Assembly (NCBI RefSeq): GCF_900109365.1
Contig: NZ_FNZR01000003.1
Location: forward strand, 1-64,000
From: Parapedobacter koreensis
Lineage (GTDB): Bacteria > Bacteroidota > Bacteroidia > Sphingobacteriales > Sphingobacteriaceae
DNA: 64,000 bases
Reading direction: 5' to 3'
Shown: one piece after another, positions 3,642 to 26,131 of the stretch
Numbering within the stretch: the stretch's first letter is position 1
Layout of the letters: every line of letters starts with the position of its first letter
Made by a program: the position numbers and the translations under genes
Notes under the pieces: generated by a model
What the model saw: the letters and a program-made list of their open reading frames with translations, nothing else
Database searches by the model: none
What the model was told of the DNA's origin: nothing

Positions 3642-3675
3642 CGGTATCATTTTAGCACTCGTCTCCTTATATATA
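3642..3675 (+). promoter_or_regulatory. candidate ECF sigma promoter, copy 1
   Basis: CGGTATCAT (3642-3650) is followed after 16 bases by TTATATATA (3667-3675), with CC just before the AT-rich box. The same arrangement is found at 12567 and 14985. This copy lies 60 bases before the transporter start and would drive the operon that ends with the ECF sigma gene itself. A partial copy of the first half (GGTATCAT, 3517-3524) lies upstream but lacks a matching AT box. The function is inferred from repetition and placement. Confidence 0.55.
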
Positions 3676-3734
3676 GTGAAAGGGGATGGAAGTGGATCGT
3701 CCTTGGAACCAATAAGAAACCAAATAAAAGTCAA

Positions 3735-4178
3735 ATGAAAATTTACCTTGTTCTTCTCATGTTTGTGATTGGTGCTGTATTAGCGCTTCATTTAAGTATG
3801 AATGCGCAAGTCGGCGTCATACTCAGGAACCCTAAAGTAGGCAATGCCGTGTTTTGGGTCATCGGTGCTATCACCGCTATCATCATTGGCCTTACAGCCC
3901 ATGATTCAGAGAGCTTGAATCGCTTGAAAGATGTACCACTTTGGCTGCTCACCGCTGGTGCAATCGGTGCAACATTGGTATTTGGCATTGCATGGGCTAT
4001 TCCGCAACTGGGTGCTGCACCGGCTTTTCTATTGATGATAGCAGGACAGGTTGTGGCGGGGATGGTTTTTTCACACTACGGTCTTTTAGGCTCGCCAATC
4101 GAGCCGATTTCATGGATTAAGGTATTGGGTGTCATTTTACTTATCAGTGGTGCTGGCATCGTATCATTCGCCAAATAA
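3735..4178 (+). CDS. YdcZ/DUF606-family DMT transporter
   Basis: A 147-residue inner-membrane protein with about five hydrophobic helices and almost no soluble part, matching the small YdcZ (DUF606) branch of the drug/metabolite transporter superfamily. The frame is open further upstream, but that part is polar, overlaps the promoter element at 3642-3675 and looks non-coding. The ATG at 3735 starts directly at the first helix (MKIYLVLLMF) and is preferred. It is the first gene of a same-strand run that continues with short gaps to the sigma gene at 11894. It probably moves the substrate or a product of the locus across the inner membrane. The solute is unknown. Confidence 0.75.
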   Translation: MKIYLVLLMFVIGAVLALHLSMNAQVGVILRNPKVGNAVFWVIGAITAIIIGLTAHDSESLNRLKDVPLWLLTAGAIGATLVFGIAWAIPQLGAAPAFLLMIAGQVVAGMVFSHYGLLGSPIEPISWIKVLGVILLISGAGIVSFAK

Positions 4179-4201
4179 ATAAAGCAGACAAGGAATTAAT
4201 A

Positions 4202-5143
4202 ATGGAAACTAAAAATCAATTTAACAGACGAGATTTTATCAGATTGATGGGACTTGGGGCTGCGACAGCTGCTTTATTGCCGCCATTAGCCGTATGGGGG
4301 GCGCGAGATCGGAAATTCCAAATAGGTGCTACCTTTATTTTATGGGGCTACGGTCCCGATAACCTTGAACCAGCCCTCAAGGATATTTCCGAGTTAGGAT
4401 ACCATGCCTTTGAAACTTTCGGTTCAGTCATCCAGGAGTGGGAAGAGAAGCGTGGCGGACTAAATCAGCTGATTGAAAAATATCAAGTCCCCCTCATTTC
4501 GGGATTTTGTATGACGGACGTCTTAGACCCATCTAAAAAGAAAGACGAGCTCAAAAAACTAGTTCACTGGGCAAGGCTTTTGAAAAAAAATGGCGGTAAA
4601 GTCGTGGAATATTGCGCTTCCGGCATCGACCGCGAAAAACTCAAATTCGATTATCGGGAGCACAAGCAATATATGATCGAATCCATGAACGACTATGCAA
4701 AAGCCGTGACCGACGAGGGGTTGGTATGCGCATTGCATCCCCACACGGGTACACCTATTGAAACCGAAGAAGAAGTCTATTTCGTCATGGAAAACCTGAA
4801 TACCGACTACATGAAGTTTGGTCCGGATGTAGGACAACTGGAAAAGGGTGGGGCCGATCCGGTGAAAATCGTCAAGGACTTCATTCCGTTGATTGAGCAT
4901 GTACACTTAAAGGATTTCGAAGGGGGAGACAATGGTTATTTAGGTTATGCGCCGTTGGGCGTGGGACATGTCAAACTGAAAAAGATCCTTGACCTTTTAG
5001 AGCAGAAAAGGGATCAAATGGCAGGCATGATTATGTTTGAGCTTGATTTCGACCGGGATATTACGCCAAGATGGACCCCAGATAAGGCCGCTGAACTATC
5101 TCGTGACTACCTGCAATCGCTGGGCTATACATTCAATCACTAA
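4202..5143 (+). CDS. Tat-exported sugar isomerase/epimerase-like TIM-barrel protein
   Basis: A 313-residue protein of the xylose isomerase-like TIM-barrel superfamily (AP endonuclease 2 fold). The N-terminus is a twin-arginine signal: RRDFIRLMG at residues 9-17, then the hydrophobic stretch AATAALLPPLAVWGA. This predicts export in folded form to the periplasm, probably with bound metal. The barrel follows from residue 37. Motifs such as ALHPHTGTPIETEEE, FGPDVGQLEKGG and HVHLKDFEGG supply His, Asp and Glu residues typical of the metal site. The genes around it, other than the transporter, encode proteins without export signals, so the product may work with the periplasmic quinoproteins of the second block. 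The substrate is unknown. Periplasmic 3-keto-sugar conversion is one possibility. Confidence 0.8.
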   Translation: METKNQFNRRDFIRLMGLGAATAALLPPLAVWGARDRKFQIGATFILWGYGPDNLEPALKDISELGYHAFETFGSVIQEWEEKRGGLNQLIEKYQVPLISGFCMTDVLDPSKKKDELKKLVHWARLLKKNGGKVVEYCASGIDREKLKFDYREHKQYMIESMNDYAKAVTDEGLVCALHPHTGTPIETEEEVYFVMENLNTDYMKFGPDVGQLEKGGADPVKIVKDFIPLIEHVHLKDFEGGDNGYLGYAPLGVGHVKLKKILDLLEQKRDQMAGMIMFELDFDRDITPRWTPDKAAELSRDYLQSLGYTFNH

Positions 5144-5160
5144 AACATAAAAAGTATATA

Positions 5161-6675
5161 ATGACGGACAAAACATCCATTCGTAAGCTGGAGGCAATCA
5201 TCGGTGGGAAAGCGGTGATCAGCGTTTCAAACGAGCATTTCGATATCTATAACCCCAGTACAGGCCAGGTACAAGCGTTGGCACCAAAATGTACACAAGA
5301 GGAGGTTGTTGCCGCCATCGAGGCGGCACATCGGGTATTTCCGTCCTGGGCGGATGTGCCCGTGATGAAACGTATTACTGTACTCTATAAATTCAGGGAT
5401 CTCATCGAACGCCATGAAGATGAATTGGTCGAGTTATTGAGCCGTGAAAATGGGAAAACGCTCGGGGAAGCACGTGGGGATGTGCTCAAGGCTAAGGAAG
5501 TCGTGGAGCTGGCGTGTGGTACACCTTCGCTCATGATGGGCGAATCAGTGATGAATGTATCATCTGGCTTTGATACGGTATCTTACCGTGAGCCATTGGG
5601 CGTATTCGCAGGCATTGCGCCCTTTAATTTTCCGGCGATGATTCCCCTGGGCTGGATGGTACCCCTGTGCATCGCCACAGGTAATACTATCGTCTTGAAG
5701 GCATCCAACGTCACGCCGATGACGTCTTTCCGCATGGTAGAGTTGCTCTATGAGGCTGGCTTGCCAGCAGGAGTCGTAAACGTGCTGACCTGTGATGATC
5801 ACGCGGCTGCTCCCCTGTTGGAACATCCCCATGTCAAAGGGGTCACGTTTGTCGGGTCCACACGCACTGGCCAATTTATCTATCAGAAAGCTTCTGAACA
5901 TGGCAAACGGGTGCAGGCGCTGTGCCAGGCGAAAAACCATGCGCTGGTGCTTGAGGACGCTGATTTGGAAAAAACGGCACATGCCATCATCAATGCGGCC
6001 TATGGCTGTGCTGGCGAGCGATGTATGGCCCTGTCGGCGGTGGTGGCACAGGAAACCATCGCGGACGATTTGGTGCAGCTATTGGTCCAGTATGCCCAGG
6101 CACTGAAAGTAGGGCCGGGCTATCATCCGGATACACAGATGGGACCACTCGTCACCCCTGCTCACCATGAAAAAGTAACGGGTTGGATCGCTAAAGGCTT
6201 GGAAGAGGGCGCTCAACTGGTGTTGGATGGCCGTCAATTTATCGTGCCGGGATTTGAAGATGGATGTTACCTTGGACCTTGCCTATTTGACCACGTCACG
6301 CCGGAGATGACCATTGGTGATGAAGAAATATTCGGGCCGGTATTAAGCATAAAACGCGTAAAAGATTTTGAGGAGGGCCTTGGTATTATGAACAACAATC
6401 CCTATGCAAACGGCTCCATCATATTCACCAACAACGGACATTACAGCCGCGAATTTGCCAGACGTACCCATGCTGGCATGGTCGGGATCAATGTAGGTAT
6501 TCCGGTACCGGTCAGCATATTCCCGTTTACCGGCCATAAGCAATCATTTTTTGGTGATTTGCACGCCATAGGCAAAGACGGTGTGCGCTTTTATACGGAA
6601 TCCAAGATTGTAACCACCCATTGGTTTGGCCCCGGCGAAGGGAAGAAAATGGATGCCTGGGGCGGCGCGATGTAA
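5161..6675 (+). CDS. mmsA: CoA-acylating methylmalonate-semialdehyde dehydrogenase
   Basis: A 504-residue aldehyde dehydrogenase of the MmsA/IolA type. This family oxidises methylmalonate or malonate semialdehyde with NAD and CoA, giving propionyl-CoA or acetyl-CoA. The nucleophile Cys288 is in GERCMALS, the MmsA form of the ALDH active site. The CQAKNHALVLEDAD segment (near residue 258) and PFNFPAMIPLGW (near residue 155) are also typical. In IolA the usual active-site Glu is absent, and the same region here reads QAKNH instead. The gene is 17 bases after the isomerase-like gene and is followed by a cyclase-family hydrolase. The context suggests that the pathway ends in a three-carbon semialdehyde or a similar oxo-acid, as in inositol breakdown, but the other inositol enzymes are not here. 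Confidence 0.9.
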   Translation: MTDKTSIRKLEAIIGGKAVISVSNEHFDIYNPSTGQVQALAPKCTQEEVVAAIEAAHRVFPSWADVPVMKRITVLYKFRDLIERHEDELVELLSRENGKTLGEARGDVLKAKEVVELACGTPSLMMGESVMNVSSGFDTVSYREPLGVFAGIAPFNFPAMIPLGWMVPLCIATGNTIVLKASNVTPMTSFRMVELLYEAGLPAGVVNVLTCDDHAAAPLLEHPHVKGVTFVGSTRTGQFIYQKASEHGKRVQALCQAKNHALVLEDADLEKTAHAIINAAYGCAGERCMALSAVVAQETIADDLVQLLVQYAQALKVGPGYHPDTQMGPLVTPAHHEKVTGWIAKGLEEGAQLVLDGRQFIVPGFEDGCYLGPCLFDHVTPEMTIGDEEIFGPVLSIKRVKDFEEGLGIMNNNPYANGSIIFTNNGHYSREFARRTHAGMVGINVGIPVPVSIFPFTGHKQSFFGDLHAIGKDGVRFYTESKIVTTHWFGPGEGKKMDAWGGAM

Positions 6676-6715
6676 ACCCATGTCAAACAGCTAAATGATG
6701 AATAACACATAACAA

Positions 6716-7489
6716 ATGAAGAAAGCATATTGCCCACCATTTAACTTACAAACGCGGTTGCGGTTCCTTGGCCATGACTGCATCGTGACAGATCTGAGCC
6801 ATACGATTAGCAAAGAGGATCCAACATTTATCGGGCACCAACGTACACTAATATGGGATCATTTGACGCATGAAGAAACCCAGCAGATGGGATTGACCAA
6901 GCCGCCATATTCGTATAAAGTGGTAGGATTTACCTTGTGTGATCATTCCAATACCCATGTGGATGCCATCAATCATGTGGTCAACGAGCCGGATGCGCGG
7001 GCAATAAACCAACTGCCCTTGGAATGGTTCATGGCGCCGGGCGTTTGGTTTGATTTTGCATGGAAGGAGCCGCGCAGCTATATCACACGGCAGGATATCG
7101 AAACGGCAATCGCGCAAACCGGAGTACACATACAGCCGCAATCCGTGGCTTTGATTCATACCGGATGGTACAAAAAATGGAAGGATCCCTTCAATTACAT
7201 CCGAGACTACCCTGGTCTGGATCGCAGTGCCATGGAGTACCTTAATGATTTGGGAGTCATCAGTGTGGGGGCCGATGCGCCGAGTATCGATAGTTATCAC
7301 GAAGTGGCTGTGGTCAAAGAGCAACCAGCGCACATTGTATGCCGTGAACGGGAAATATTGAATATGGAAAACCTTGCGCAGGTAGACCTGATACCAACCA
7401 AGGAGTTTTGGTTTATTGGCCTACCGTTAAAAATCAAGGGTGGGTCGGGATCGCCATTTAGGGGAGTTGCTGTTGTGCCACAAAATTAA
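6716..7489 (+). CDS. cyclase-family metal-dependent hydrolase
   Basis: A 257-residue cytoplasmic protein of the kynurenine formamidase/cyclase family (PF04199 type). These are metal-dependent hydrolases that open amide, ester or lactone rings. The family motif HxGTHxDxPxH appears as HSNTHVDAINH at residues 77-87. All metal-binding His and Asp positions are kept, but Gly becomes Asn and Pro becomes Ile. A second conserved stretch, SVGADAPSID, is near residue 180. No tryptophan-pathway gene is nearby, so kynurenine is an unlikely substrate. Between two dehydrogenases and MmsA it could hydrolyse a lactone or cyclic diketone formed by oxidation of a sugar or cyclitol. It lies 40 bases after mmsA and 9 before the alcohol dehydrogenase. 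Confidence 0.8.
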   Translation: MKKAYCPPFNLQTRLRFLGHDCIVTDLSHTISKEDPTFIGHQRTLIWDHLTHEETQQMGLTKPPYSYKVVGFTLCDHSNTHVDAINHVVNEPDARAINQLPLEWFMAPGVWFDFAWKEPRSYITRQDIETAIAQTGVHIQPQSVALIHTGWYKKWKDPFNYIRDYPGLDRSAMEYLNDLGVISVGADAPSIDSYHEVAVVKEQPAHIVCREREILNMENLAQVDLIPTKEFWFIGLPLKIKGGSGSPFRGVAVVPQN

Positions 7490-7498
7490 CGTATTAAG

Positions 7499-8575
7499 AT
7501 GACGACATATCATGAGATGGATGCTTTGGTGTTGAAAGGTGTCCGCGATTTTTCAATAGAACGGGTGTCTATTCCGGTGCCGGGAGATGACGAGGTCATC
7601 TGCAAGGTTGATACGACTTATATATGCGGAACAGACCCGCATATCATCGGGGGTGATTTTCCAGGGTTTTGGCCTACTGCTTTTCCATTTATCCCCGGTC
7701 ACGAATGGTCGGGAACGGTCACCGTTGTGGGTGCGAAGGCCGCTGCTCTTGGCTGGCGGGAGGGCGACCGCGTCTGTGCGATTTCCCACTGTGGCTGTGG
7801 ATATTGCAGCATGTGCCTGAAAGGACGCTACAACATTTGCTTGAATTACGGACATGAGGAACGCGGGCATCGCCAATATGGGCATTATACGCCAGGGGCA
7901 TATGCACAATACATGCGTACTTCAGTGAAAAGCATCTTCAAGATACCCGATGAAATGGAATTGGAATATGCCGCTTGTGTAGACCCACTTAGCATCGCTT
8001 TATATACCGTCAAACGTTCGCGTATGGAGCCGGGTGACGATGTATTGATCCTGGGTACGGGACCGCAGGGGTTGATGGCTGTCTTATGCGCGAAGGCACT
8101 TGGAGCCGGACGAATCTTTGCTGTGGGCAATGGCGATCGCCTCAATAAAGCAGAAGAGCTGGGTGCTGTCCCGATTAATTACCGGAATGATGATGTACTT
8201 GGCCTACTGCGGCAGTTTACTGAAGGTAAGGGCGTTCCGGCGGTGCTTGAATGTGCGGGAACGGCAGCGTCACTGCAACTGGCCTGCCTCGCTGCGTCAA
8301 AGGGTGGGGTGATTTCGGTCATTGGTATCCCCCATACCGATCCAAGTATCCCACTGAAACGGATGGTGCTTGATGAAGTGGAATTGGTGGGCAACCGAGC
8401 CAACCCCAATACGGCTCAAGAGGCTATCGATCTGCTGGTCAATAATCGGATAGATCTGCACCCACTCTTGACACACCGCTTCTTATTGAAAGACTTCAAA
8501 GAGGCATTGCAGACCTTCGAAGACCGGATCGACGGGGCCATCAAAGTTGCTGTCAAACCGAATGAAATGGACTAA
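7499..8575 (+). CDS. zinc-dependent alcohol/polyol dehydrogenase (MDR family)
   Basis: A 358-residue medium-chain dehydrogenase. The catalytic zinc site is seen as C43-G-T-D and G67-HE. The structural zinc lobe is the Cys cluster at residues 98, 100, 103, 106 and 114. The nucleotide-binding glycine motif GTGPQG is near residue 182. The sequence is closest in style to threonine/sorbitol/galactitol dehydrogenases, which oxidise a secondary alcohol of a polyol or sugar with NAD(P). It is encoded between the cyclase-family hydrolase and an SDR. Two successive oxidations followed by hydrolysis would be a reasonable scheme. The substrate cannot be read from sequence. Confidence 0.88.
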   Translation: MTTYHEMDALVLKGVRDFSIERVSIPVPGDDEVICKVDTTYICGTDPHIIGGDFPGFWPTAFPFIPGHEWSGTVTVVGAKAAALGWREGDRVCAISHCGCGYCSMCLKGRYNICLNYGHEERGHRQYGHYTPGAYAQYMRTSVKSIFKIPDEMELEYAACVDPLSIALYTVKRSRMEPGDDVLILGTGPQGLMAVLCAKALGAGRIFAVGNGDRLNKAEELGAVPINYRNDDVLGLLRQFTEGKGVPAVLECAGTAASLQLACLAASKGGVISVIGIPHTDPSIPLKRMVLDEVELVGNRANPNTAQEAIDLLVNNRIDLHPLLTHRFLLKDFKEALQTFEDRIDGAIKVAVKPNEMD

Positions 8576-8608
8576 TTGTAAAATGTAGCGATAATTAAGA
8601 AAACAGCT

Positions 8609-9364
8609 ATGAGCGAAAAAGTGATGATTGTAAGTGGCGGGGCTTCGGGTCTGGGATTGGCCGCCGCAATCAAGTTTGCCCAACAGGGCTACGATATTGT
8701 GCTTGTGGACATTGACAAGCAAAAGGGAGAAAAGGCCGCGGAGCAGATCCAGAAGATGGGCAGGCAAGCGCTGTTCTGCGAATGTAATATTGCCGATGGC
8801 CTTCGGATACGGGAAGTGGCCCAGCAAACCAAGGAACAGTTTGGGCGCGCGGATGCGCTGATCAACAATGCAGGTTTGGAACTCCGGGGAAGTATCCTAC
8901 AATGTACGGAAGAAGAATGGGAACGTACATATGCTATCAACCTAAAGGGAATCTACCACATGGCAAATGCATTTGTGCCCATGATGATCGAGCAGGGCAA
9001 GGGAGCCGTGATCAATACGGGATCCATCCTGGGATTCCGCACGGTACCCGAGCGGGCGGCATATTCTTCATCCAAGGGTGCCATTGATACGCTCACACGG
9101 AGTATGGCGCTCGACTTGGCCCCTCACCACATCCGGGTCAATTGTGTGGCACCTGGAGCCATTGATACACCCCTGTTGCGCGGTTCCATCAACGATTCGC
9201 CGGACCCTGCCGCGACGGAGAAAATCTTGGGTTCCAAAAGCGTATTTAATCGAATGGGCACGGCGGAGGAGGTAGCCAATGTGATGTATTTCCTGGCTTC
9301 GGATGAAGCATCTTTTGTCACGGGCGCTACCTACTTCGTGGATGGTGGTTGGTCGATATTATAA
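8609..9364 (+). CDS. SDR-family oxidoreductase
   Basis: A 251-residue classical short-chain dehydrogenase/reductase. The cofactor motif is GGASGLG (residues 10-16), a GG variant of TGxxxGIG. NNAG is at 86-89. The catalytic residues are Ser139, Tyr152 and Lys156 (YSSSK). Asp34 and Asp36 after the second strand (VLVDID) favour NAD over NADP. The C-terminal FVTGATYFVDGG is standard for the family. It probably acts on a hydroxyl or keto group of the pathway intermediate. The gene is in the middle of the operon, 33 bases after the MDR dehydrogenase and 27 before the transketolase start. Confidence 0.9.
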   Translation: MSEKVMIVSGGASGLGLAAAIKFAQQGYDIVLVDIDKQKGEKAAEQIQKMGRQALFCECNIADGLRIREVAQQTKEQFGRADALINNAGLELRGSILQCTEEEWERTYAINLKGIYHMANAFVPMMIEQGKGAVINTGSILGFRTVPERAAYSSSKGAIDTLTRSMALDLAPHHIRVNCVAPGAIDTPLLRGSINDSPDPAATEKILGSKSVFNRMGTAEEVANVMYFLASDEASFVTGATYFVDGGWSIL

Positions 9365-9391
9365 TGGTAAAATCCTTTAATACAAGTTGTT

Positions 9392-11482
9392 TTGATTAGT
9401 TTAGTAGCTAAAAAATCTCAGTTGGCGAAAGGTCTTGTCCGCTTGCTGGAAATAAAGGATGCCGATATTCGGTTGTCCAATTTGTATCAGTGTCGCTACG
9501 CCGTAGATCAGGCCATCCACATCGGCGGTGCATCATCGGCAGTTATTCCGATGGTAAGCGTTTATTACAGTGGCGTATTGGATAGTGATGTTGCACAGCC
9601 GACAGCGCCCGATCAAGACTTATTTATATTAAGCAAAGGGCATGCCGTAGCTACCTTAGCGTCCATCTACGCGGACTTGGGGTATTTCGCCGATACGGTG
9701 TTGCAAAATTCACGGTCGATATCCAGCATACTCAATGGGCATCCCGGTCCCATATTGCCCGGTGTGCATTTGGCCACGGGTCCGATGGGGCAGGGCATGG
9801 GTGTAGCACAGGGGTTTGCCATTGCAGGGCAACGATCAGGCAATTTTGATGTCTATGCGCTTACAGGCGACGGTGAATTGCAAGAAGGTCCGATATGGGA
9901 GACGGTCATGTACGCTGGATACAAACGGCTGGAAAACCTGTGCGTTTTAGTCGATCACAATGGGGGGCAACTGGATACCACAGCCAAACTGCATTTTCCA
10001 TATACCCATTTGGCTGCAAGCTTCCAAAGCTTCGGCTGGCGGGTGATAGAGGTAGATGCTACGCAATACCATGGTGTGGTAAATGCCTTGTATACCTTTA
10101 AATTTGGGCGGCGGGATGGTCGGCCAACCGTTATTATCTGCAATGCTACAAAGGGCCAAGGCGGTTATTCGGATTACATGAATAACCATAAAGTATCCAT
10201 AGCGGCAAATTTGCTTGATCAGGAAGAAAAACTTCTCCAACAACGAAGGCTGAATCATATCCGTCGTTTTGGCCAATATTTCCAACGTTTACAAAACGAG
10301 CGCTTGTCCGATGTTTGCGAGGCGCTGGAGCAGTATGCCGATCGGTTGGGCTATGTGTATTCATCGACGGAAACAGCGGCACGTCTTTTCTTGGAAAAGA
10401 AACCGGTGACGGTGAAAACGGTGAAGGCTCCAATACGCGAAAAACGTATCCGTTTTGATGCTGCATCGTTGCCCAAATTAGAAATGGGAGCCAACTATAT
10501 GCCGCATAAAGTGATTGAAATGGTAATGAAAGTATTTGCGAAGGATGACAAAGTCGTCTCTGTGGATGCTGATTTATCATCAACAAGCGGGTTGCAAGCC
10601 GGTGTAGGTTATGTAGATCAGACTCGGGCGCTGAATGTAGGCGTTGCCGAGGCCAACATGATGCTTATCGGGGAAGCTTTCGCCATACTGGGTGGAAATG
10701 TCTGGATAAGCACGTTCTGCCCGTTTTATGATTGGAAAGTGCTACGCCGTATAGCGGTGGGTTATCAGGAACGATTGGAAGCTATTGCTGCCAATAGTTG
10801 GCTGTCCGAGGGCCATGGCATTGATTTGACGTTGGTGGCAACAGCCGCCGATTTGGAAACCCAGTCAAATGGTGCTACGCATATGGGCAATGATGACGCC
10901 GTGATGCTCGATGGATTGGCTCATCTCAAGATTATCAACGCTTCCTGTCCGCAGCAATTATTGGGGATCTTGCGTTGGATAGCGCAGGGGAATAAAGGGA
11001 TTGTGTACCTACGGATACTGCGGGCAGCCGCACCGGTGATTTATGCAAGTGATTTTGAGTTTGAATATGGTCGTTCATATGTTGTGAAGGACGCAGCGGA
11101 ACCCGACATCACGGTGGTGTCCAGCGGACGTCAGGTGTTTGAATCCTTGGTAGCAGCAGACGAGTTGGCCGCCAGGGGAATCGCGGTAAAGGTGATAGAC
11201 ATGCCGTCCATAGACCAACAAGTGCTGTTAGCGGAATACCATAGCGGTAGACCTATAGTTATCGCGGAACAAAACAATGGCTACATCTGGAACAATTTCA
11301 TTAAGGTACTCTTTGAAAACGAAAAACAGGTTGATACTGGACAGCTTTACGCTGTGAATACCGTGGGTAAAGGGCCGTTACAATATATTCACTCTGGTAC
11401 TTATGCCGAGTTAGCCGACTATTATGGACTATCGGGGAGTCGGCTTAGCGACTACCTCATTGATTTATTAAACAAAAATTGA
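9392..11482 (+). CDS. transketolase-family protein (full length, both ThDP domains)
   Basis: A 696-residue thiamine diphosphate enzyme. The N-terminal domain has SKGHA and the ThDP/Mg motif GDGELQEG with VLVDHNG. The pyrimidine domain begins near residue 365 and has NVGVAEANM and THMGNDDA. A C-terminal transketolase domain follows. Family members transfer a two-carbon ketol unit between a ketose and an aldose, usually as phosphates. No ATG exists in the first part of the frame: TTG 9392 is the best start, and TTG 9422 is an alternative. An upstream ATG at 9364 overlaps the SDR stop but is in another frame and ends after 11 codons, so a sequencing slip or a real non-ATG start are both possible. 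The next gene follows after 1 base. No sugar kinase is in the locus. Confidence 0.85.
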   Translation: MISLVAKKSQLAKGLVRLLEIKDADIRLSNLYQCRYAVDQAIHIGGASSAVIPMVSVYYSGVLDSDVAQPTAPDQDLFILSKGHAVATLASIYADLGYFADTVLQNSRSISSILNGHPGPILPGVHLATGPMGQGMGVAQGFAIAGQRSGNFDVYALTGDGELQEGPIWETVMYAGYKRLENLCVLVDHNGGQLDTTAKLHFPYTHLAASFQSFGWRVIEVDATQYHGVVNALYTFKFGRRDGRPTVIICNATKGQGGYSDYMNNHKVSIAANLLDQEEKLLQQRRLNHIRRFGQYFQRLQNERLSDVCEALEQYADRLGYVYSSTETAARLFLEKKPVTVKTVKAPIREKRIRFDAASLPKLEMGANYMPHKVIEMVMKVFAKDDKVVSVDADLSSTSGLQAGVGYVDQTRALNVGVAEANMMLIGEAFAILGGNVWISTFCPFYDWKVLRRIAVGYQERLEAIAANSWLSEGHGIDLTLVATAADLETQSNGATHMGNDDAVMLDGLAHLKIINASCPQQLLGILRWIAQGNKGIVYLRILRAAAPVIYASDFEFEYGRSYVVKDAAEPDITVVSSGRQVFESLVAADELAARGIAVKVIDMPSIDQQVLLAEYHSGRPIVIAEQNNGYIWNNFIKVLFENEKQVDTGQLYAVNTVGKGPLQYIHSGTYAELADYYGLSGSRLSDYLIDLLNKN

Positions 11483-11483
11483 G

Positions 11484-11864
11484 ATGACAATCATTCACGA
11501 AGATGATGTGCGAGAAACCTTACAACCAGGCAGGTATATGCGATGGCTTACTAATGACGATACGTTAAAAGCACAATACCTGTCCGTTTGTGTGATACGT
11601 GTGCTGCCGGGAGAGGCTGTGCGCCCGGCACATTCACACCCTAAGAGTGAGGAAGCCATTTATATTATTAGTGGTAATGGAAAAGTAATGATTGAAGGGG
11701 AGGTGGGAAATGTGAAGGCGGGGTCGTTGGTACTCTTTGAACAAGGTAAAGTCCATATGCTGAAAAATACCAGCACGGAAGAAATGAAGGTGGTTTGTTT
11801 TTTTGCCCCGGCAACCAGTCTGGACAATTACCTGTTGTTTGAGGACGTCCAAATTCCCGATTAA
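11484..11864 (+). CDS. small cupin-domain protein
   Basis: A 126-residue single-domain cupin. Cupin motif 1 is seen as HSHPKSEEAIYIISGNG (near residues 50-66), with two His and a Glu as metal ligands. Motif 2 is AGSLVLFEQGKVHMLKN, supplying the last His. Its size fits a sugar or oxo-acid isomerase, a lactonase-like helper or a sensor domain, and these cannot be separated by sequence alone. It starts 1 base after the transketolase stop, so it is almost certainly co-transcribed and perhaps translationally coupled. The sigma gene follows 29 bases later. Confidence 0.8.
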   Translation: MTIIHEDDVRETLQPGRYMRWLTNDDTLKAQYLSVCVIRVLPGEAVRPAHSHPKSEEAIYIISGNGKVMIEGEVGNVKAGSLVLFEQGKVHMLKNTSTEEMKVVCFFAPATSLDNYLLFEDVQIPD

Positions 11865-11893
11865 TAGTTAACCGTTGCTTAGGTATCATAATT

Positions 11894-12538
11894 ATGTTGT
11901 CCATCATGGGTAGGGTACGAAAACTGTCGAAAACCGAAAAATATGTGTCGGGTGAATTTCCTATAAAGCGTGTGAAAACCGTGAACGATTATGCACAATT
12001 ACCCGATAGATCAGTATGGGAAGCGTTTAAGGAAGGGGATGAATTGGCGTTTGTCAATATCTACAGAACCTACGTCGATGTACTGTTTAACTATGGTTGC
12101 CAGTTTACTGCCGACCGTGAAATGGTGAAGGATTGTTTACAGGATTTTTTTGTTTATCTCCGCAATAGCCGGGCAGGCTTGGGAAAAACGGATAATATCA
12201 AACTGTACTTGTTGAAAGCCTTCAGACGACGTGTGTTCGACTACCTCAAAAAGACAAATCGGGAGATCCAACACAATGAATATTTTGCCTTTCTGCAATT
12301 TCCTATTGAACTATCCAGTGAATCCATGTATATCAACCGACAAATAGAGGCCGAACAACTGGTACGGTTGAATACAGCGTTGCAGGCCTTGAACACCAAG
12401 GAGCGGGAGGCGATTTATTACTTCTATTACGAAGGGTTGAGCTATGAACAGATCGCGGAAATCCTGCATGTTACCCATGTGTCATCTGCTCGGCGTATCG
12501 TGTATCGGGGATTGAGCCATCTGAAAAAGTTTTTTTAA
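11894..12538 (+). CDS. ECF RNA polymerase sigma factor (FecI-like)
   Basis: A 214-residue extracytoplasmic-function sigma factor. Region 2 spans about residues 45-115 (AFVNIYRTYVDVLFNYG, then DFFVYLRN). Region 4 spans about 160-212, with the helix-turn-helix GLSYEQIAEILHVTHVSSARR. In Bacteroidota such factors work with a FecR regulator and an STN-containing SusC receptor to switch on carbohydrate uptake. Both partners are encoded at 15038 and 16228, but a quinoprotein gene separates them from sigma. The gene is last in the catabolic operon, so activation of the first promoter would also raise its own level. ATG 11894 is the assigned start, and ATG 11906 is equally possible. Confidence 0.9.
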   Translation: MLSIMGRVRKLSKTEKYVSGEFPIKRVKTVNDYAQLPDRSVWEAFKEGDELAFVNIYRTYVDVLFNYGCQFTADREMVKDCLQDFFVYLRNSRAGLGKTDNIKLYLLKAFRRRVFDYLKKTNREIQHNEYFAFLQFPIELSSESMYINRQIEAEQLVRLNTALQALNTKEREAIYYFYYEGLSYEQIAEILHVTHVSSARRIVYRGLSHLKKFF

Positions 12539-12566
12539 CCAATTATCCAGTTTTTATTGTTTTATC

Positions 12567-12600
12567 CGGTATCATGGATCGCCTTTCAGCCTTATTATAT
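12567..12600 (+). promoter_or_regulatory. candidate ECF sigma promoter, copy 2
   Basis: CGGTATCAT (12567-12575) is followed after 16 bases by TTATTATAT (12592-12600), again preceded by CC. It lies 53 bases before the quinoprotein ATG and 29 bases after the sigma stop codon. It would let the second block be transcribed independently of the sigma operon. Confidence 0.55.
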
Positions 12601-12653
12601 TAAGCACGTCAGGGCATACCAATTTGCTCGCACGTAACTAATTCGAACTAAAG

Positions 12654-14969
12654 ATGATGAATATGTTATTAGTTAGATCAACTAAAAGGGGAAGACTTTT
12701 GCCCATTCTCAGCGCGGTTTTGTGTGCCTTCGTTGTCGCGGGGTGCAGCCGTCCCGATTCCGCTGACCAATATACGACATGGATGAACTATGGGGGGGGT
12801 GCGGATCAATCCAAGTATTCCAAATTGGATCGCATCGATAAATCAAATGTGTCCCAACTGTCCGTGGCGTGGTCATATGCCACAGGTGACAATACTTCTT
12901 ACCAGTTTAATCCGATTATTGTAGATACCGTGATGTACGTACTGGCAAAAAACAGTTCCCTGGTGGCACTCCACGCAGTTACGGGCGAGGAACTTTGGAT
13001 ACATGCCAATCTGAATGGGATCGCTCGACGGGGGATAAACTATTGGGAAAGCAAGGATCGCTCGGACAGAAGGCTGATTTTTCAAATCAACGATTACTTG
13101 CAGGAAATCGATGCACATACGGGACAATCGATACGGACGTTCGGAAAGGATGGGTTGGTCGATTTGCGGGAAGGGCTTGGGCGTGATCCGGGGACGATTG
13201 CCCGCGCGCAGTCGGGCACACCCGGAGCAATATTTGAAAATCTCATTATCCTGGGGGCTTCCACCGGTGAGGGGTTTCTTTCTACACCCGGTTTTCTGCG
13301 GGCTTACGATATTCTGACAGGCGATCTGGCTTGGACATTCCATACGATTCCCCAACCGGGAGAATTTGGTTACGACACCTGGCCCAAAGACGCTTATAAA
13401 TACATTGGCGGAGTCAATACTTGGGGCGAAATTTCCCTTGACGCGGAGCGGGGGATAGCTTATTTTCCGGTAGGTTCGCCTACGTACGATTATTACGGTG
13501 CTGACCGGATTGGCGCCAATTTATTTGGTAATTGTTTGCTCGCGCTGGATGCCCGTACGGGTGAGCGCCTATGGCATTATCAATTGGTGCATCATGACCT
13601 TTGGGATTATGACCCTTCTGCAGCTCCACAACTGGTCACGGTCAACCATGGTGGTAAAGCCATCGACGCGGTGGCTATCGCTACTAAACATGGGTTTTTG
13701 TTTGCGTTTGACCGGGTGACGGGCGAGCCGCTGTGGCCCATTGAAGAACGTGCTGTTCCTGCCAGTGACCTGCCGGGCGAAGAGGCTTGGCCCACACAAC
13801 CGTTCCCAACCATATTGCCCCCCTTTGCCCGCCAGCAGATGACATCAGCTGACCTTACGCCGTTTTTCTTGAATCCGGACGAACGGGAGGAATGGACGCG
13901 TAAGATTGATAGTATGCAAACGGGTTTATTTACACCATTGTCTCACCTGAAGGCAACCGTCACACAACCCGGTGCAGTAGGTGGGGCCAATTGGGGCAGT
14001 ACGGCCGCCAATCCCGCTACGGGTATGGTATACGTCCGTAGCATTGATTGGCCTTCGTTTTATGGGAAGATGATTAGACAGGAAGCCCCCGATGAGCAAG
14101 CGGAAGCTGCTGGTCCCGGGGAACTGAGTGGAGACGCATTATATGTCCAATATTGCCAGGCTTGCCACGCGAACGATCGATCCGGTGGCGTAGGTCCCTC
14201 GTTGGTGGGACTGTCAGCTCGCATGCAGTTCAATGAATTTCATCAGCTTGTATCAGGTGGCCGCGGTGAAATGCCGGCACTCCACCACCTCGATGAGGAG
14301 GCTGTCCAGCGCCTGTATAGATACCTGGCCCGGCTCGACAGAATGAGTCCGCAACGGACAAACGATACCGTGGAGGGGCCAGTGGTCGCATCGGGAGGCA
14401 TACCGGGTGGTTTGGAATTGCGGAAAGCCCCGAATCTGGGTAGTTATGGGGGGAATGATTTCGGCCCACCCTATCCTGCAGGCGTTGAAGCGCCTTCGCT
14501 TCGCTACTTCGTTCCTCCCGGATGGGGACTGGAACATCCATACCTCATCAGTCCACCCTGGTCTACGATTACAGCATATGATCTAAATGAAGGGACGATT
14601 AAATGGACAAGGGCTATTGGTGAAGATAAGATGGCGGCAGCGGAAGGGGGAAAGAACACGGGAGTACCAAGGGCGCAGCGAAATGGCATGATTGTCACTG
14701 CCACGGGACTTCTGTTTTCTACCAGCAAAGATGGAAAAATATATGCATTTGATGCAGAGACTGGTGAGCAATTGTGGGCTGGTGATTTGCCTATGGGAAC
14801 GGAAGGCCTTCCCTCGCTTTACCGAGTTGGAGGACGTGATTACTTGGTGGTCTGCGCGTCCACACCCATCCGCTGGTCGATAGATAAGGGAGAAGGAGAC
14901 GAGCAAGAGCAAGCAGGTCAGCAGGGCCAATATGTCGTCTTTTCATTGCCTGAAAATGTCGGCCAATAA
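12654..14969 (+). CDS. PQQ-dependent dehydrogenase lipoprotein with inserted cytochrome c domain
   Basis: A 771-residue quinoprotein. The N-terminus is a lipoprotein signal ending in VAGC, so the enzyme should be anchored in the periplasm. A beta-propeller of PQQ-dehydrogenase type covers about residues 40-470 (DQSKYSKLDRIDKSNVSQLSVAWSY style repeats; YQLVHHDLWDYD). A haem c domain is inserted at about 485-560, with CQACH at 501-505 and a likely axial Met in GEMPAL. The last propeller blades follow (PPWSTITAYDLNEG). Family members oxidise alcohols, sugars or polyols and pass electrons through the haem to the respiratory chain. PQQ synthesis genes are not in the window. The gene has its own candidate ECF promoter. 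ATG 12654, 12657 and 12663 are all possible starts. Confidence 0.9.
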   Translation: MMNMLLVRSTKRGRLLPILSAVLCAFVVAGCSRPDSADQYTTWMNYGGGADQSKYSKLDRIDKSNVSQLSVAWSYATGDNTSYQFNPIIVDTVMYVLAKNSSLVALHAVTGEELWIHANLNGIARRGINYWESKDRSDRRLIFQINDYLQEIDAHTGQSIRTFGKDGLVDLREGLGRDPGTIARAQSGTPGAIFENLIILGASTGEGFLSTPGFLRAYDILTGDLAWTFHTIPQPGEFGYDTWPKDAYKYIGGVNTWGEISLDAERGIAYFPVGSPTYDYYGADRIGANLFGNCLLALDARTGERLWHYQLVHHDLWDYDPSAAPQLVTVNHGGKAIDAVAIATKHGFLFAFDRVTGEPLWPIEERAVPASDLPGEEAWPTQPFPTILPPFARQQMTSADLTPFFLNPDEREEWTRKIDSMQTGLFTPLSHLKATVTQPGAVGGANWGSTAANPATGMVYVRSIDWPSFYGKMIRQEAPDEQAEAAGPGELSGDALYVQYCQACHANDRSGGVGPSLVGLSARMQFNEFHQLVSGGRGEMPALHHLDEEAVQRLYRYLARLDRMSPQRTNDTVEGPVVASGGIPGGLELRKAPNLGSYGGNDFGPPYPAGVEAPSLRYFVPPGWGLEHPYLISPPWSTITAYDLNEGTIKWTRAIGEDKMAAAEGGKNTGVPRAQRNGMIVTATGLLFSTSKDGKIYAFDAETGEQLWAGDLPMGTEGLPSLYRVGGRDYLVVCASTPIRWSIDKGEGDEQEQAGQQGQYVVFSLPENVGQ

Positions 14970-14984
14970 AAAAATCAAATTATT

Positions 14985-15020
14985 CGGTATCATTTTCCGA
15001 TAGCGTCCCTTTATTATAAT
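14985..15020 (+). promoter_or_regulatory. candidate ECF sigma promoter, copy 3
   Basis: CGGTATCAT (14985-14993) is followed after 17 bases by TTATTATAAT (15011-15020), preceded by CCC. It lies directly upstream of fecR, with only about 17 bases between the AT box and the GTG start. The fecR messenger would therefore have a very short leader or start at a downstream codon. Confidence 0.55.
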
Positions 15021-15037: not shown

Positions 15038-16090
15038 GTGAACGTGCACGAATTTGAAATATTCCTCCGGTTGATTATGAACAAAGGGTTCCGTGATTGG
15101 GTGATCAATCCCAACGAGGAACGAAATTATTTCTGGAGAAAATGGATGGCAGAACATCCCGACGCTACAAATGTGGTCAAGAAAGCACGAGAGTTTGTCG
15201 ATCGGATAAGTTTCAAACATGAACAGCTTTCGGACGACGAAAAAGAAGCGTTGTTAGGAAAGATCATCGCTTCTGAAAAGCATCAGTTCAAAGGCAGTCG
15301 TACGTCCGATTTCTACAGCAACGTGAGGTGGTGGATGAAGGTGGTAGCGGTATTGGTGCTTTGTTTTGGCTTGATTTTGCTGACCGACGATTTCACATCG
15401 CGGATTCAGATTAAACCCGAGCGGTTTTTAAATGAATGCAAGATCATACAGACAGGAAAAGGGCAACGGCATAAGGAAATCTTACCGGATGGAACTACGG
15501 TTTACCTCAACGCGGAAAGTACGTTACAATTTCCATTACATTTTAATGCTGCTATCCGAAGAGTGGAGCTCAAGGGAGAGGCTTTCTTCGAAGTGGTACG
15601 CATCGACACGGTGCCCTTTATTGTTTCGGCTCAGGGAATTGAAACACAGGTGTTTGGTACTTCGTTCAATGTAAGGGCTGTGGAAGAGGAGCTCGCAACG
15701 GAGGTGTCTTTAGTGTCGGGCAAAGTCAGTGTTGATGTGGCGGGTAATAAGGAAGGAATAGGGGGTTCGGTCTTGAAACCAGGAGAACAGTTCAGCTATA
15801 ATTGGCACTTGGGAAAATCGGAGAAACATACGTTTGACATCCAAGAAATAACCGCCTGGAAAGATGGTATCATTTATTTGAAAGATGCAAGCTTGGATGA
15901 TTTTATTGTGAAAATGGAAAATTGGTATGGTGTTGATTTTCAGGTTTTCGGTAAAGCATCCAAGGAATGGAGAATCAATGGACGGTACCAAAATGAAGAA
16001 TTAGACAATATCCTCAAAGGACTCATGTTTGTATATGGCATTAGTTATAAAATTGACGGGGACAATGTCATGCTGATAGTTAACCAATAA
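15038..16090 (+). CDS. FecR-family anti-sigma/sigma regulator
   Basis: A 350-residue inner-membrane regulator. A cytoplasmic N-terminus (about 1-95, with FWRKWMAEHPD) should bind the sigma factor. One membrane helix (VVAVLVLCFGLILL, about 107-121) follows. The periplasmic FecR domain has the conserved ILPDGTTVYLNAESTLQFP and RRVELKGEAFFEV segments. The C-terminal DUF4974-like region (LDDFIVKMENWYGVDF) contacts the STN domain of the receptor. The start used is GTG 15038, which gives the usual N-terminus of the family. GTG 15044 and ATG 15077 are alternatives. The gene is followed after 137 bases by an STN-type SusC, the expected signalling partner. Confidence 0.9.
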   Translation: MNVHEFEIFLRLIMNKGFRDWVINPNEERNYFWRKWMAEHPDATNVVKKAREFVDRISFKHEQLSDDEKEALLGKIIASEKHQFKGSRTSDFYSNVRWWMKVVAVLVLCFGLILLTDDFTSRIQIKPERFLNECKIIQTGKGQRHKEILPDGTTVYLNAESTLQFPLHFNAAIRRVELKGEAFFEVVRIDTVPFIVSAQGIETQVFGTSFNVRAVEEELATEVSLVSGKVSVDVAGNKEGIGGSVLKPGEQFSYNWHLGKSEKHTFDIQEITAWKDGIIYLKDASLDDFIVKMENWYGVDFQVFGKASKEWRINGRYQNEELDNILKGLMFVYGISYKIDGDNVMLIVNQ

Positions 16091-16227: not shown

Positions 16228-19200
16228 ATGGAAATTTTTAGATTACACTTGTCGTTTAAGGCAAGAGGATTGGTATTGGGAATCCTTTTGTCACAACTGA
16301 GTATGACTTGGGTGTTTGCACGCCAACGTTTGCGTGACCAAGTAGCTGCTGTTTCGTTTGTACAGCATACCTTGAAACCAAGAGGGGTAACCAGCCTGTT
16401 GGAAGGAACGATCGATTTAAATATCCGCAATGTAAAAGTTGCCGAGTTGTTCCAAACGGTCGAAGCAAAAACCGGTTTGAATTTCGTCTATGACAAAGAA
16501 GTGCTGACCTACAGTAAAACGTTTACGATAAAGGAGCGTAATATTACTATCCGCGCACTATTGGACGAGATCTCACGACAATCCAAACTTCGCTTTAAGG
16601 CAGTCAGCAACAATATTAACGTCCGGTTAGTGGATGAAAAACATCCTGAACCGCTGGAATCCAAAAGCATGGCAGATGTGACCATAAATGGTCAGGTTCA
16701 GGACAAGGATAATGTACCACTGGCCGGAGTCACCATTAAGGCAGCGGGCGGCACCCAAGGTGCGGCAACCGATGAAGAAGGTCGGTTTTCCATCACCGTA
16801 CCGGAGAATGCCGTGTTGGTATTCTCATTGATTGGCTATGTAGAACAACGTATTCCGGTTGGGCAGCAGCGCACGCTCCGCGTGACGCTGGCGGAAAGCA
16901 CTTCTTCGTTGGAGGAAGTGGTGGTCGTTGGTTATGGTACGCAACGACGCAGCGACGTTACCGGTGCCATTGCTTCGGTTACATCGAAAGAGCTTGAAGA
17001 TGAACCTGTGTTGCAAGTGGGACAGGCCCTGCAAGGTAAGGTGCCGGGATTGCAGGTATCACAGAACTCTGGTGCGCCGGGGTCCGGTTTGTTAATCCGC
17101 GTGAGGGGTACCGGTACAGTAAATAACTCCGAGCCTTTGTATGTGATAGACGGTAACCCCAATGTCGAAGCCATTGATATCGCACCCGATCAGATCGAGA
17201 GTATCCAGGTGCTGAAGAGTGCAAGTGCTGCGGCCATTTATGGCGCCCAAGGTGCCAACGGCGTCGTGCTGATCACGACCAAACAAGGCCGGGCCGGGAA
17301 AACCCAGCTGGACGTTAATTTTTCTCAGGGATTACAGCAGATTCAGCGGTATTTCCCGATGACCAATGCCATGCAATACGCCACCTTGTATAACGAAGGT
17401 CTGGTGAATGCCGGGCAGGCCCCACTCTATCCGGATCCGGAAGCGTTAGGCGAGGGGACCAACTGGCAAAAGGAAATATTTCGCCTTGCTCCGATGACGG
17501 ATGTGGGTCTTGCCGCCAGTGGCGGTAATGAATCAAGCAGGTTTTATTTTTCTGCTGGTTACACCAAGCAGGATGGTATTGTTAAGAACAGCACGTTTGA
17601 CCGGATTAGTCTTCGCGTCAATTCTTCACATAAGATCAATGATTTTATAAGTTTAGGGCAAAACCTGTCCACGAGTCTGGCCACGTACAGTAATATTTCG
17701 GAGTTTGGATATGGCGTATTAAATAGCACGTTAACAGCCAACCCGGAAATACCTGTAAAAAACCCGGATGGAAGTTGGGGTTTCTCCGCAAACTCTTTGA
17801 ATTCCAGTAACCCGGCAGCTGCTTTAAGTTATGTCAATGATGACACCAAACGTCCCGTAATCAACGGGAATGCTTATCTCGATATTACGCCACTGGAAGG
17901 ATTAGTTTTCCGTTCTCAGCTTAATTTCAATATGGGTAGAAGCGAACGAAAAACCTTTACACCGGTGTATCGGGTTTCTACTTCCCAGTTTAACGACGTG
18001 GCTACGCTTGCCGAGCAAGAAAGTCGCTTTAACGAGTACAGTTGGGCAAATACATTGACATACCAGAAAGAATTTGGCGAACACAACCTGGAGGTGTTAG
18101 GAGGTTTCACCGTACAGGAATCATACCGGCAAAATATTAACGCATCAGGAAGGGGGCTTCCTCCCGCAGCCACCGACAATGAGGGTATTCGTTATCTCGA
18201 CCTTGCGATTTCCAATTTCAGCGCCACAGGGGGTGCCGGGGAATGGGGTATCCTATCTTATTTAGGACGTGTTAACTACAACTTTGCCGGAAAATATTTT
18301 ACAACGGTTAATTTTCGTGTGGACGGTTCTTCCCGTTTTGGCGAAAACAACAAATATGGTAGTTTCCCTTCTTTTTCACTGGGGTGGAAAATATCGGAAG
18401 AGAATTTCCTGAAAGATGCAAATTGGGTAAGCAACCTCATGTTAAGAGGCGGATGGGGCTCATTGGGCAACCAGAGTTCATTGCCAAACTACGCTTTCGC
18501 GCACCTTGTTACGCCGAATGTTAATTACGCCTTTGGCAATGCCGTTGTAAGAGGCCAGGCACCCACTACCCTGGGTAATCCGGACTTAAAATGGGAGTCA
18601 ACCCGGGAAACAAATCTCGGTTTTGATTTTACCGGATTCGGGGGGAAAGTGAATGCTTCTTTTGACTGGTATTATAAGAAAACGACCGATATGCTGTTGC
18701 AGGTGCCGCTGGTAGGATACGCAGGTATTACTACGGCTCCTTATGTAAATGGCGGTGATGTGCTTAATAAAGGAATTGAAGCCATGCTGGGGTACAATCA
18801 TTCGACCAGCAGCGGAATCAATTTTGAAGTGTCGGGAAATATAGCCTTCAATAAAAATAAGGTAACCGCGCTGAGTAACTCGGGTACCTCCATTCAGCAA
18901 TTCCTGAGTTTCGTAGGACTGATGAATTCCACACAGGTGGGAGCGCCGATCGCCTCTTTTTACGGCTGGATCGTGGATGGCGTGTTCCAGTCGGAGGATG
19001 AGATTGCAGCACATGCCGTTCAAAGTAACGGTACTGCGCCGGGCGACTTTAAATTCCGCGACCTGGATGGTAATGATGTGATCGATGCCAATGATCAGAC
19101 GATTATTGGCAACCCGTGGCCCAAGTTTACATATGGCATAAATGGGGGGATTTCCTATAAAGGGTTGGATTTGAAAGTACTGTTGCAGGGAACTTACGGA

Positions 19201-19614
19201 AATGACATTTTCCAGGCGTTTAAATTCAGGACAGAAGGGGCAAGCTTCTTCAACTATACCAAGAATGTTTGGGATAACCGGTGGACAGGTCCGGGCACCA
19301 GCAACACGATGCCACGGCAGACCACAAGCGATCCGAACAACAACATGCGTTCTTCTACCTATTACGTAGAAGATGGCTCATACCTCCGGGTCAGAAATAT
19401 TCAACTGGCCTATAACATACCCGTGAAACGGGCTCTTTTACGCAATGCGAGGGTATATGTATCGGTTCAAAATGCATTTGTGTTTACAAAATACCCAGGT
19501 TTTGATCCGGAAATAGGAACGAATCGGGACGCGAACCCGCTATATATCGGAATCGATGAGACCAATTATCCTATTCCCCGTATTTACACGGTAGGGTTTA
19601 ATGTGGGTTTTTAG
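16228..19614 (+). CDS. SusC/RagA-type TonB-dependent receptor with STN signalling domain
   Basis: A 1128-residue outer-membrane TonB-dependent transporter. After a signal peptide (about 1-31) comes an STN domain (about 52-127; LNIRNVKVAELFQTVEAKTG), which transmits ligand occupancy to FecR. A carboxypeptidase-D-like regulatory domain (about 150-225) leads to the SusC signature LEEVVVVGYG. The plug and 22-strand barrel fill the rest, ending in an aromatic residue (GFNVGF). The STN domain distinguishes it from the second SusC of the window, which lacks one. Together with sigma and FecR it forms a trans-envelope signalling chain. It imports the unknown substrate together with the SusD encoded 40 bases downstream. 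Confidence 0.95.
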   Translation: MEIFRLHLSFKARGLVLGILLSQLSMTWVFARQRLRDQVAAVSFVQHTLKPRGVTSLLEGTIDLNIRNVKVAELFQTVEAKTGLNFVYDKEVLTYSKTFTIKERNITIRALLDEISRQSKLRFKAVSNNINVRLVDEKHPEPLESKSMADVTINGQVQDKDNVPLAGVTIKAAGGTQGAATDEEGRFSITVPENAVLVFSLIGYVEQRIPVGQQRTLRVTLAESTSSLEEVVVVGYGTQRRSDVTGAIASVTSKELEDEPVLQVGQALQGKVPGLQVSQNSGAPGSGLLIRVRGTGTVNNSEPLYVIDGNPNVEAIDIAPDQIESIQVLKSASAAAIYGAQGANGVVLITTKQGRAGKTQLDVNFSQGLQQIQRYFPMTNAMQYATLYNEGLVNAGQAPLYPDPEALGEGTNWQKEIFRLAPMTDVGLAASGGNESSRFYFSAGYTKQDGIVKNSTFDRISLRVNSSHKINDFISLGQNLSTSLATYSNISEFGYGVLNSTLTANPEIPVKNPDGSWGFSANSLNSSNPAAALSYVNDDTKRPVINGNAYLDITPLEGLVFRSQLNFNMGRSERKTFTPVYRVSTSQFNDVATLAEQESRFNEYSWANTLTYQKEFGEHNLEVLGGFTVQESYRQNINASGRGLPPAATDNEGIRYLDLAISNFSATGGAGEWGILSYLGRVNYNFAGKYFTTVNFRVDGSSRFGENNKYGSFPSFSLGWKISEENFLKDANWVSNLMLRGGWGSLGNQSSLPNYAFAHLVTPNVNYAFGNAVVRGQAPTTLGNPDLKWESTRETNLGFDFTGFGGKVNASFDWYYKKTTDMLLQVPLVGYAGITTAPYVNGGDVLNKGIEAMLGYNHSTSSGINFEVSGNIAFNKNKVTALSNSGTSIQQFLSFVGLMNSTQVGAPIASFYGWIVDGVFQSEDEIAAHAVQSNGTAPGDFKFRDLDGNDVIDANDQTIIGNPWPKFTYGINGGISYKGLDLKVLLQGTYGNDIFQAFKFRTEGASFFNYTKNVWDNRWTGPGTSNTMPRQTTSDPNNNMRSSTYYVEDGSYLRVRNIQLAYNIPVKRALLRNARVYVSVQNAFVFTKYPGFDPEIGTNRDANPLYIGIDETNYPIPRIYTVGFNVGF

Positions 19615-26000: not shown

Positions 26001-26131
26001 AACCGCCTTTTGGTAACGATGAACCGGCCGTTTTGCGGATTACCGCGCAGTACACGAATGCGCCTGAACCGGGCATACGGCCACTCACAGGGGTCAAAAC
26101 ACTTGATTTGACATTGGTTGGCGATAAGTGA
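23084..26131 (+). CDS. ThuA / sorbosone dehydrogenase-like / PKD / cytochrome c fusion lipoprotein
   Basis: A 1015-residue periplasmic protein with four parts. The N-terminus is a lipoprotein-like signal (MSVFLQTC). A ThuA-like domain (about 42-255; GGGFVGIHAANDAEYDW) resembles trehalose-utilisation proteins. A glucose/sorbosone dehydrogenase propeller (about 285-690; DICCHTGGSIAFG, RNPYRISVDPKTNFLYWGEVGPDAGED) is a PQQ-type oxidase fold. A PKD-like beta domain (about 695-790) precedes a haem c domain with CQSCH at 884-888 and a likely Met ligand in AMAAHPDM. The arrangement predicts a sugar or sugar-lactone dehydrogenase that passes electrons to its own haem. It is the last gene of the operon, 7 bases after the FG-GAP gene. 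ATG 23084 is used, with ATG 23093 and 23096 close by. Confidence 0.85.
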   Translation: MHLMMIQRWLKFFTVVRAMLLLAGMSVFLQTCSDKREGNPRILVFSKTAAFYHESIPAGNAALLKMGANNGIDVDTTTDANRFNEDSLKQYSAVVFLSTTGDILDQYQEVALERYIQSGGGFVGIHAANDAEYDWGWYGRLVGAYFQDHPRPQEARFRVVNSQHPATEGLPETFTYADEWYNFKRISPDIKVLITIDEHSYEGGTHGDSHPMAWYHDFDGGRSFFTAFGHSAESFQDSLQLRHILGGIRYAIGNNEKLDYRKAKSKLVPERKRFVKTQLMKGELFEPTEMALLPNSDILVAQRRGELLLYQQATGTIKQVGQLDVYHRTEVPNVNAEEGLLGMALDPAFEKNNYVYLFYSPTDTSVNRLSRFVYDRDTLDRASEQVILQFYSQRDICCHTGGSIAFGSDGLLYLSTGDNSTPFDQPDPSRYKNQGFAPMDGRSGFEQYDARRSSGNTNDLRGKILRINVLADGTYDIPEGNLFAVGQQHTRPEIYVMGTRNPYRISVDPKTNFLYWGEVGPDAGEDRVDTRGPRGYDEVNQAREAGFFGWPFFVGANYAYRSYDYGTGQSGPLFDPEGPANTSPNNTGLNRLPPAQPAFIWYPYAASPDFPQVGTGGRNAMAGPVYHVDRFPKATRYPDYYDDKLVIYDWVRGWVKVVTMLPNGDFDRLEPFMEGESFASPIDMEVGRDGRLYVLEYGKGWYSKNPDAGIARIDYYPDNIPPKIGGLTVDRNSGDVPFTVNARVDVMDDENDPLTYQWHIDGVCVQTDGPMLTHTLETVGEHGISVTVEDSNSGRATSSPILVYAGNDRPAIDILVANPERTFHMGDAIAYEVRIDDGGRAINPDNLVVTVDYLQGTDLAGASTGHQQASQLIEGRSLMQASDCQSCHKLDEPSIGPSFMQVATRYRGKHDSPTYLVEKVVKGGSGVWGEVAMAAHPDMKEAEAQRIVQWILSLAEISDGRKSLPAKGIIIAKPPFGNDEPAVLRITAQYTNAPEPGIRPLTGVKTLDLTLVGDK

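Follow-up and report, generated by a model that had tools for sequence, protein, structure and literature searches.

What reads the promoters of a nutrient-uptake locus that carries a gene for its own ECF sigma factor? The question is raised by the first 64,000 nucleotides of contig NZ_FNZR01000003.1 of Parapedobacter koreensis (this whole stretch is referred to below as the window), where the 9-mer CGGTATCAT occurs on the + strand at 3642, 12567 and 14985, all within one such locus. A preliminary description had listed these three copies, which are present at those positions, and had proposed that they are the target of the sigma factor encoded at 11894. Bacteroidota genomes hold dozens of ECF/FecR/SusC systems whose promoters are mostly unknown; here a sigma factor can be tied to a promoter from sequence alone, through a motif specific enough to be tested directly. 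We consider it very probable that the element is a -35/-10 promoter pair read by the sigma factor encoded at 11894.

All of the genes of the locus lie on the + strand. Nine of them, with gaps of 1-40 bases, form operon 1 behind the first copy of the element. The first (3735..4178, start assigned by homology) encodes a YdcZ-type membrane transporter (DMT_YdcZ; Pfam PF04657, 98 bits), and the seven that follow (4202..11864) encode an IolE-like TIM barrel, an MMSDH-type dehydrogenase, a cyclase, a Zn alcohol dehydrogenase, an SDR, a transketolase and a cupin; the IolE model gave the TIM-barrel gene 81.9 bits, which is below its 290-bit cut-off. As a guess from the family names, these enzymes may oxidise and degrade a sugar or cyclitol. 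The ninth gene (11894..12538) encodes the ECF sigma factor, which was recognised by NCBIfam TIGR02937 (65.2 bits, cut-off 42.9) and Pfam PF08281 (42.7 bits, cut-off 25.7) and which, at 76.1 bits, missed the cut-off of 126.4 for the Bacteroidetes subfamily TIGR02985. Downstream of operon 1 are genes for a PQQ-dependent dehydrogenase with a cytochrome c domain (12654..14969; Pfam PF01011 and PF13442), a FecR-type sigma regulator (15038..16090; Pfam PF04773, 56.8 bits, cut-off 24, and PF16344 (FecR_C), 54.5 bits, cut-off 24.4), a SusC-type TonB-dependent receptor (16228..19614; Plug and beta-barrel models) and a SusD-type lipoprotein (19655..21163), the last named from its place after SusC and its own sequence. 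The receptor has an extra, STN-like N-terminal region that scored 19.6 bits with the STN model PF07660 (cut-off 28.4) and is 47-52% identical over 75-79 amino acids to the corresponding region in three relatives, G459, G460 and G496. The genome contains 41 FecR_C matches, so the locus is one of many such systems. Further downstream, positions 23084-26131 encode one protein in which ThuA, glucose/sorbosone dehydrogenase, PKD and cytochrome c domains are combined.

In each of the three full copies of the element (CCTTATATATA, CCTTATTATAT and CCTTTATTATA, in order of position) exactly 14 bases separate CGGTATCAT from CC and an A/T-rich box. Copy 1 occupies 3642..3675 on the + strand (9-mer at 3642-3650, CC and A/T box at 3665-3675) and begins 93 bp before the transporter gene; copy 2 occupies 12567..12600 on the same strand (12567-12575 and 12590-12600), 87 bp before the PQQ dehydrogenase gene; and copy 3, also on the + strand, occupies 14985..15018 (14985-14993 and 15008-15018), 53 bp before fecR. 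The second box had originally been given as TTAT..TATA, preceded by CC, at a distance of 16-17 bases. The CC is indeed present in all three copies, and the distance is right if it is counted to the T run after the CC, the CC itself coming after 14 bases. The A/T-rich nature of the box also stands, but its literal wording was loose, as TTATNNTATA was matched nowhere in the genome at 14-20 bases after the 9-mer and CGGTATCAT-N14-CC-TTWT fits the sites better. It can be seen that every copy is intergenic, upstream of the next gene and on the same strand as that gene, as had been stated; before copy 1 there is a frame with a GTG start at 3573, but homologous transporters start at the residue matching 3735. 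The arrangement, two boxes at a fixed distance before genes of the sigma factor's own locus and with a spacer of 14 in every copy counted, is that of an ECF-type promoter. The -7 box of the housekeeping sigma-A, TAnnTTTG (consensus from an excerpt of PMC9723704), was not found in any of the three intergenic regions.

The preliminary description had put the expected number of the 9-mer at far less than one per strand, and for the window it is indeed low (0.42); however, it is present there five times and not three, a count that 0/100 shuffles reached. The two additional copies, at 37845 and 44807, lie inside minus-strand genes, have no second box and are probably due to chance. When both boxes were considered, at least three places at ≤1 mismatch were found in 0/150 first-order Markov simulations of the window, in keeping with the view that the second box makes coincidence unlikely. 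The 5.55-Mb genome was then scanned with the refined pattern CGGTATCATN14CCTTWTWWWWW at ≤3 mismatches. This gave 22 places, two without mismatches, one with one, one with two and 18 with three; a reversed control pattern gave 19 places at the same threshold, and the three-mismatch places are therefore background. The best three places were the reported sites at 3642, 12567 and 14985, although their top rank is partly built in and is not independent proof, since the pattern was refined on these same sites. They were also the only places in the genome at ≤1 mismatch, so that the many copies at unrelated genes that would have spoken against the proposal were not seen, and the sole two-mismatch place sits in a 262-codon open frame.

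If the element is read by the sigma factor, it should be sought where the sigma factor has orthologs, and these are rare. We found them, at 50-64% identity, in five other genomes, two of Chitinophagaceae type (G458 and G1233) and three of Muricauda type (G459, G460 and G496). A scan of genome contigs yielded the Segetibacter metagenome assembly G458 (64%), Muricauda CP2A G459 (53%) and the Bacteroidia metagenome assembly G460 (50%); the Muricauda genus set, in which the sigma factor is present in 3/71 genomes, added G496 to the two already found; and G1233, at 56% identity to the window sigma, was found among 176 Segetibacter-family genomes after the motif had been fixed. A sigma factor of Zhouia (G461) is 41% identical. 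With the best few candidates per genome scored, there was no ortholog at E ≤ 1e-40 among the 398 other family genomes sampled, and none beyond the query genomes in a class sample of 395 genomes (1e-45) or a Flavobacteriaceae sample of 378 genomes (1e-40). The sigma factor and element occur in Sphingobacteriales, Chitinophagales and Flavobacteriales, but the three Muricauda-type sigma factors are 93-94% identical and come from close kin, and the independent lineages are therefore fewer than six. This patchy distribution may point to transfer of the locus. A search of plasmids for a copy of the operon lacking the sigma gene, made with the cyclase, returned only three haloarchaeal records (31-35% identity). 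Region 4.2 of the sigma factor is 61-74% identical in four of the orthologs (all except G1233), against 20-43% in 16 rows (15 distinct) of more distant sigma factors. The helix-turn-helix of this region has one extra residue, common to the window sigma, the four aligned orthologs and Zhouia and absent from 15 other aligned sigma rows.

All six sigma-bearing genomes, the window genome included, have the element before the transporter operon. Its presence at the orthologous operon in 5/5 of the other genomes supports, short of proof, the assignment to the sigma factor at 11894. With the pattern fixed, whole-genome scans gave one place at ≤1 mismatch in G458 and two each in G459, G460 and G496, and of these seven, four precede the orthologous transporter and three precede fecR; the Zhouia genome has no such place. 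For G1233 the 40 kb around the sigma gene contained one place at ≤1 mismatch, 140 bp before the transporter. As 1/150 simulations of that stretch also gave one place, this match is convincing because of its position and not because of its count.

Counterparts of the other two copies were also sought, as the preliminary description had suggested, with a mixed outcome. The element precedes fecR, as copy 3 does, in G459, G460 and G496, and the distance to the gene is 48 bp in both G459 and G460, against 53 bp in the window. A counterpart of copy 2 was found in Segetibacter, where CTGTATCAT-N14-CCTTATATAAG (L127:558, two mismatches) lies between the cupin and PQQ dehydrogenase genes on contig C37, which at its start shares 127 identical bases with the end of C119. 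It was the first fetched of three two-mismatch places in G458; the other two are both in long open frames and were discarded. No good copy was found within 400 bp upstream of the PQQ gene in G459, G460 and G1233, nor of the first PQQ gene of G458. The same distance upstream of the sigma gene held no good copy in G458, G459, G460 or G1233, so that self-amplification of the sigma factor through operon 1 would be, among the genomes checked, a trait of the window organism. Variants with three mismatches occur upstream of SusC in G1233 (TGGTATCAA-N14-CCTTAT, 201 bp before the gene) and similarly in Segetibacter G458 (CGGTATCAA-N14-CCTTAT). Two other candidates were rejected: CCGTATCAT in Zhouia (L054:10937), which is within the fecR reading frame and is not followed by a second box, and L169:15192, where the 9-base box and CC are present and the A/T box is missing. 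At L051:10724 in Segetibacter, 274 bp before the transporter's element, the -35 box recurs, but its second box is poor (CTTCTACTTAA).

To compare the parts of the element, we aligned seven sites, the three of the window, two of Segetibacter and two of Muricauda. Pairwise identities were 183/189 in the -35 box, 42/42 in the CC and 104/189 in the A/T box; they were 101/294 for the spacer, 238/735 on the upstream side and 262/966 on the downstream side. The choice of sites had in part favoured matches in the boxes, but it took no account of the spacer and flanks. We conclude that the putative -35 box and the CC are kept and that the spacer and flanks have diverged.

Could the copies nevertheless resemble one another by chance? 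Single places at ≤1 mismatch are frequent across the family, with at least one in 113/398 of the other genomes (114/399 with the window genome), although outside the window genome only two are exact, one in G079 and one in G030. These background places are mostly in long open frames, 25/30 among the matches listed being in frames of at least 120 codons. The sites of the six sigma-bearing genomes differ in this respect, as only 2/14 are in such frames, namely copy 1, where the open frame is that of the transporter itself, extended upstream, and the site before a fecR stub in G458. Against three copies in one locus, a number that the simulations of the window never produced, and orthologous positions in six genomes, we regard chance likeness as negligible.

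Since the sigma gene and the operon occur together in everything searched, a different factor might in principle use the element. It might be the operator of a DNA-binding regulator that is not a sigma factor, as a box of nine bases could serve as one. A candidate exists in G458 and G1233, where a gene for an AraC-type protein with a cupin-like N-terminus (L051:8686-9561 and L203:18839-19714, both on the - strand, 73% identical) is divergent to the sigma gene; but when this protein was searched by tblastn against the loci of the remaining four genomes, which also have the element, nothing close was matched (best 33% over 101 amino acids), and the DNA-binding protein common to all six loci is the sigma factor. 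Two unlike boxes, an invariant 14-base gap, an A/T box and a distance of 48-53 bp to fecR also fit a promoter, making an operator very improbable. It is very improbable, too, that the element is an ECF promoter read by one or more other ECF sigma factors encoded in this genome. The abundance of FecR_C matches noted above means that cross-talk could occur, yet the genome's only three places at ≤1 mismatch are all within this sigma factor's own locus, and the element accompanies the ortholog in six genomes that are unlike in their remaining ECF sets.

Reading by the sigma factor encoded at 11894 would fit a signalling route of a known kind. A nutrient outside the cell would bind the SusC receptor, whose N-terminal region would contact FecR in the periplasm, and FecR would in turn free or activate the sigma factor. 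Together with RNA polymerase, the sigma factor would read CGGTATCAT through region 4 and the CC and A/T box through region 2, and three transcripts would begin, covering operon 1, the PQQ dehydrogenase gene and fecR-susCD. With the sigma gene at the end of operon 1, the window organism would have positive feedback.

The E. coli FecA-FecR-FecI system similarly has a sigma-specific promoter before transport genes (excerpt of PMC9249621). In the locus described here, the substrate is probably a sugar or cyclitol and not iron citrate, the receptor is of the SusC/SusD type, there are three candidate promoters, and the sigma gene lies in a target operon, whereas fecIR is under sigma70 control in E. 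coli. The boxes of the E. coli Fec promoter are GGAAAT and TCCTTT. The same list of parts is found in Bacteroides, in the ECF sigma/anti-sigma systems that belong to polysaccharide utilization loci and in which the anti-sigma factor is said to sense SusC-type porins (excerpts of PMC3878776 and PMC12596196). Promoter prediction for these systems has been called challenging and in need of mapped start sites (PMC3878776, in part), and for SigW-1 the excerpt of PMC12596196 gives only a non-significant motif, TGTT near -10. Another comparison is with the SM6 motif of Flavobacterium psychrophilum, an ECF-type promoter from the same phylum; compared with SM6 as it appears in the excerpt of PMC9723704, the present element lacks CGT and has CC with A/T as its second box. 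The motif is absent from what the available parts of PMC3878776, PMC12596196, PMC9723704, PMC9249621 and PMC10766802 show. The earlier statement that no published ECF promoter with this sequence is known agrees with the literature searched and holds only to that extent; among papers containing the 9-mer, none of the titles inspected concerned ECF promoters. On the sequence evidence, then, we take the promoter to be real, specific and, as far as the literature was searched, undescribed: a new promoter in a known kind of system.

The input to the sigma factor may differ among the genomes. Searches of the loci (not whole genomes) by tblastn showed that G459, G460 and G496 resemble the window, with matches to FecR over 348-352 amino acids and to the N-terminal region of SusC over 75-79 amino acids. 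Neither the 1,011-residue SusC of G458 nor the 1,008-residue SusC of G1233 gave a match to the N-terminal region; in the 40 kb of G1233 nothing matched FecR at 1e-3, and in the G458 locus only FecR residues 12-81 were matched (40% identity, E 6e-11). The AraC-type genes are divergent to the sigma gene in these same two loci, in which full-length FecR was not found. A tentative reading, to which we give somewhat less than even weight, is that one sigma/promoter module conserved in three Bacteroidota orders has two inputs, FecR with an N-terminally extended SusC in the window genome, G459, G460 and G496, and an AraC-type regulator in G458 and G1233, where FecR would have disappeared along with the signalling region of SusC. 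This putative switch of input, which rests on two genomes, is the more surprising part of the system.

The FecR match in G458 is a cytoplasmic stub, an 88-amino-acid frame with a TTG start (L124:5936-6199, - strand), which begins 50 bp after a variant element, ends before a membrane segment and precedes the SusC gene that has no N-terminal signalling region. No Pfam model recognises it, nor is the N-terminus of the window FecR recognised by any. G458 is a metagenome assembly, and caution is needed on that account. In E. coli, constitutive activation of FecI is reported for FecR fragments from the N-terminus, such as 1-59, and replacement of W19, W39 or W50 is reported to abolish induction (PMC9249621, in part). 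By analogy, the stub may be a natural activator that keeps its sigma factor always on; alternatively it may be a decaying remnant, because the tryptophans of the window FecR N-terminus are replaced in it at the aligned places. The six genomes offer a natural series, from full FecR through FecR stub to no FecR found, in which the role of FecR for the sigma factor can be asked.
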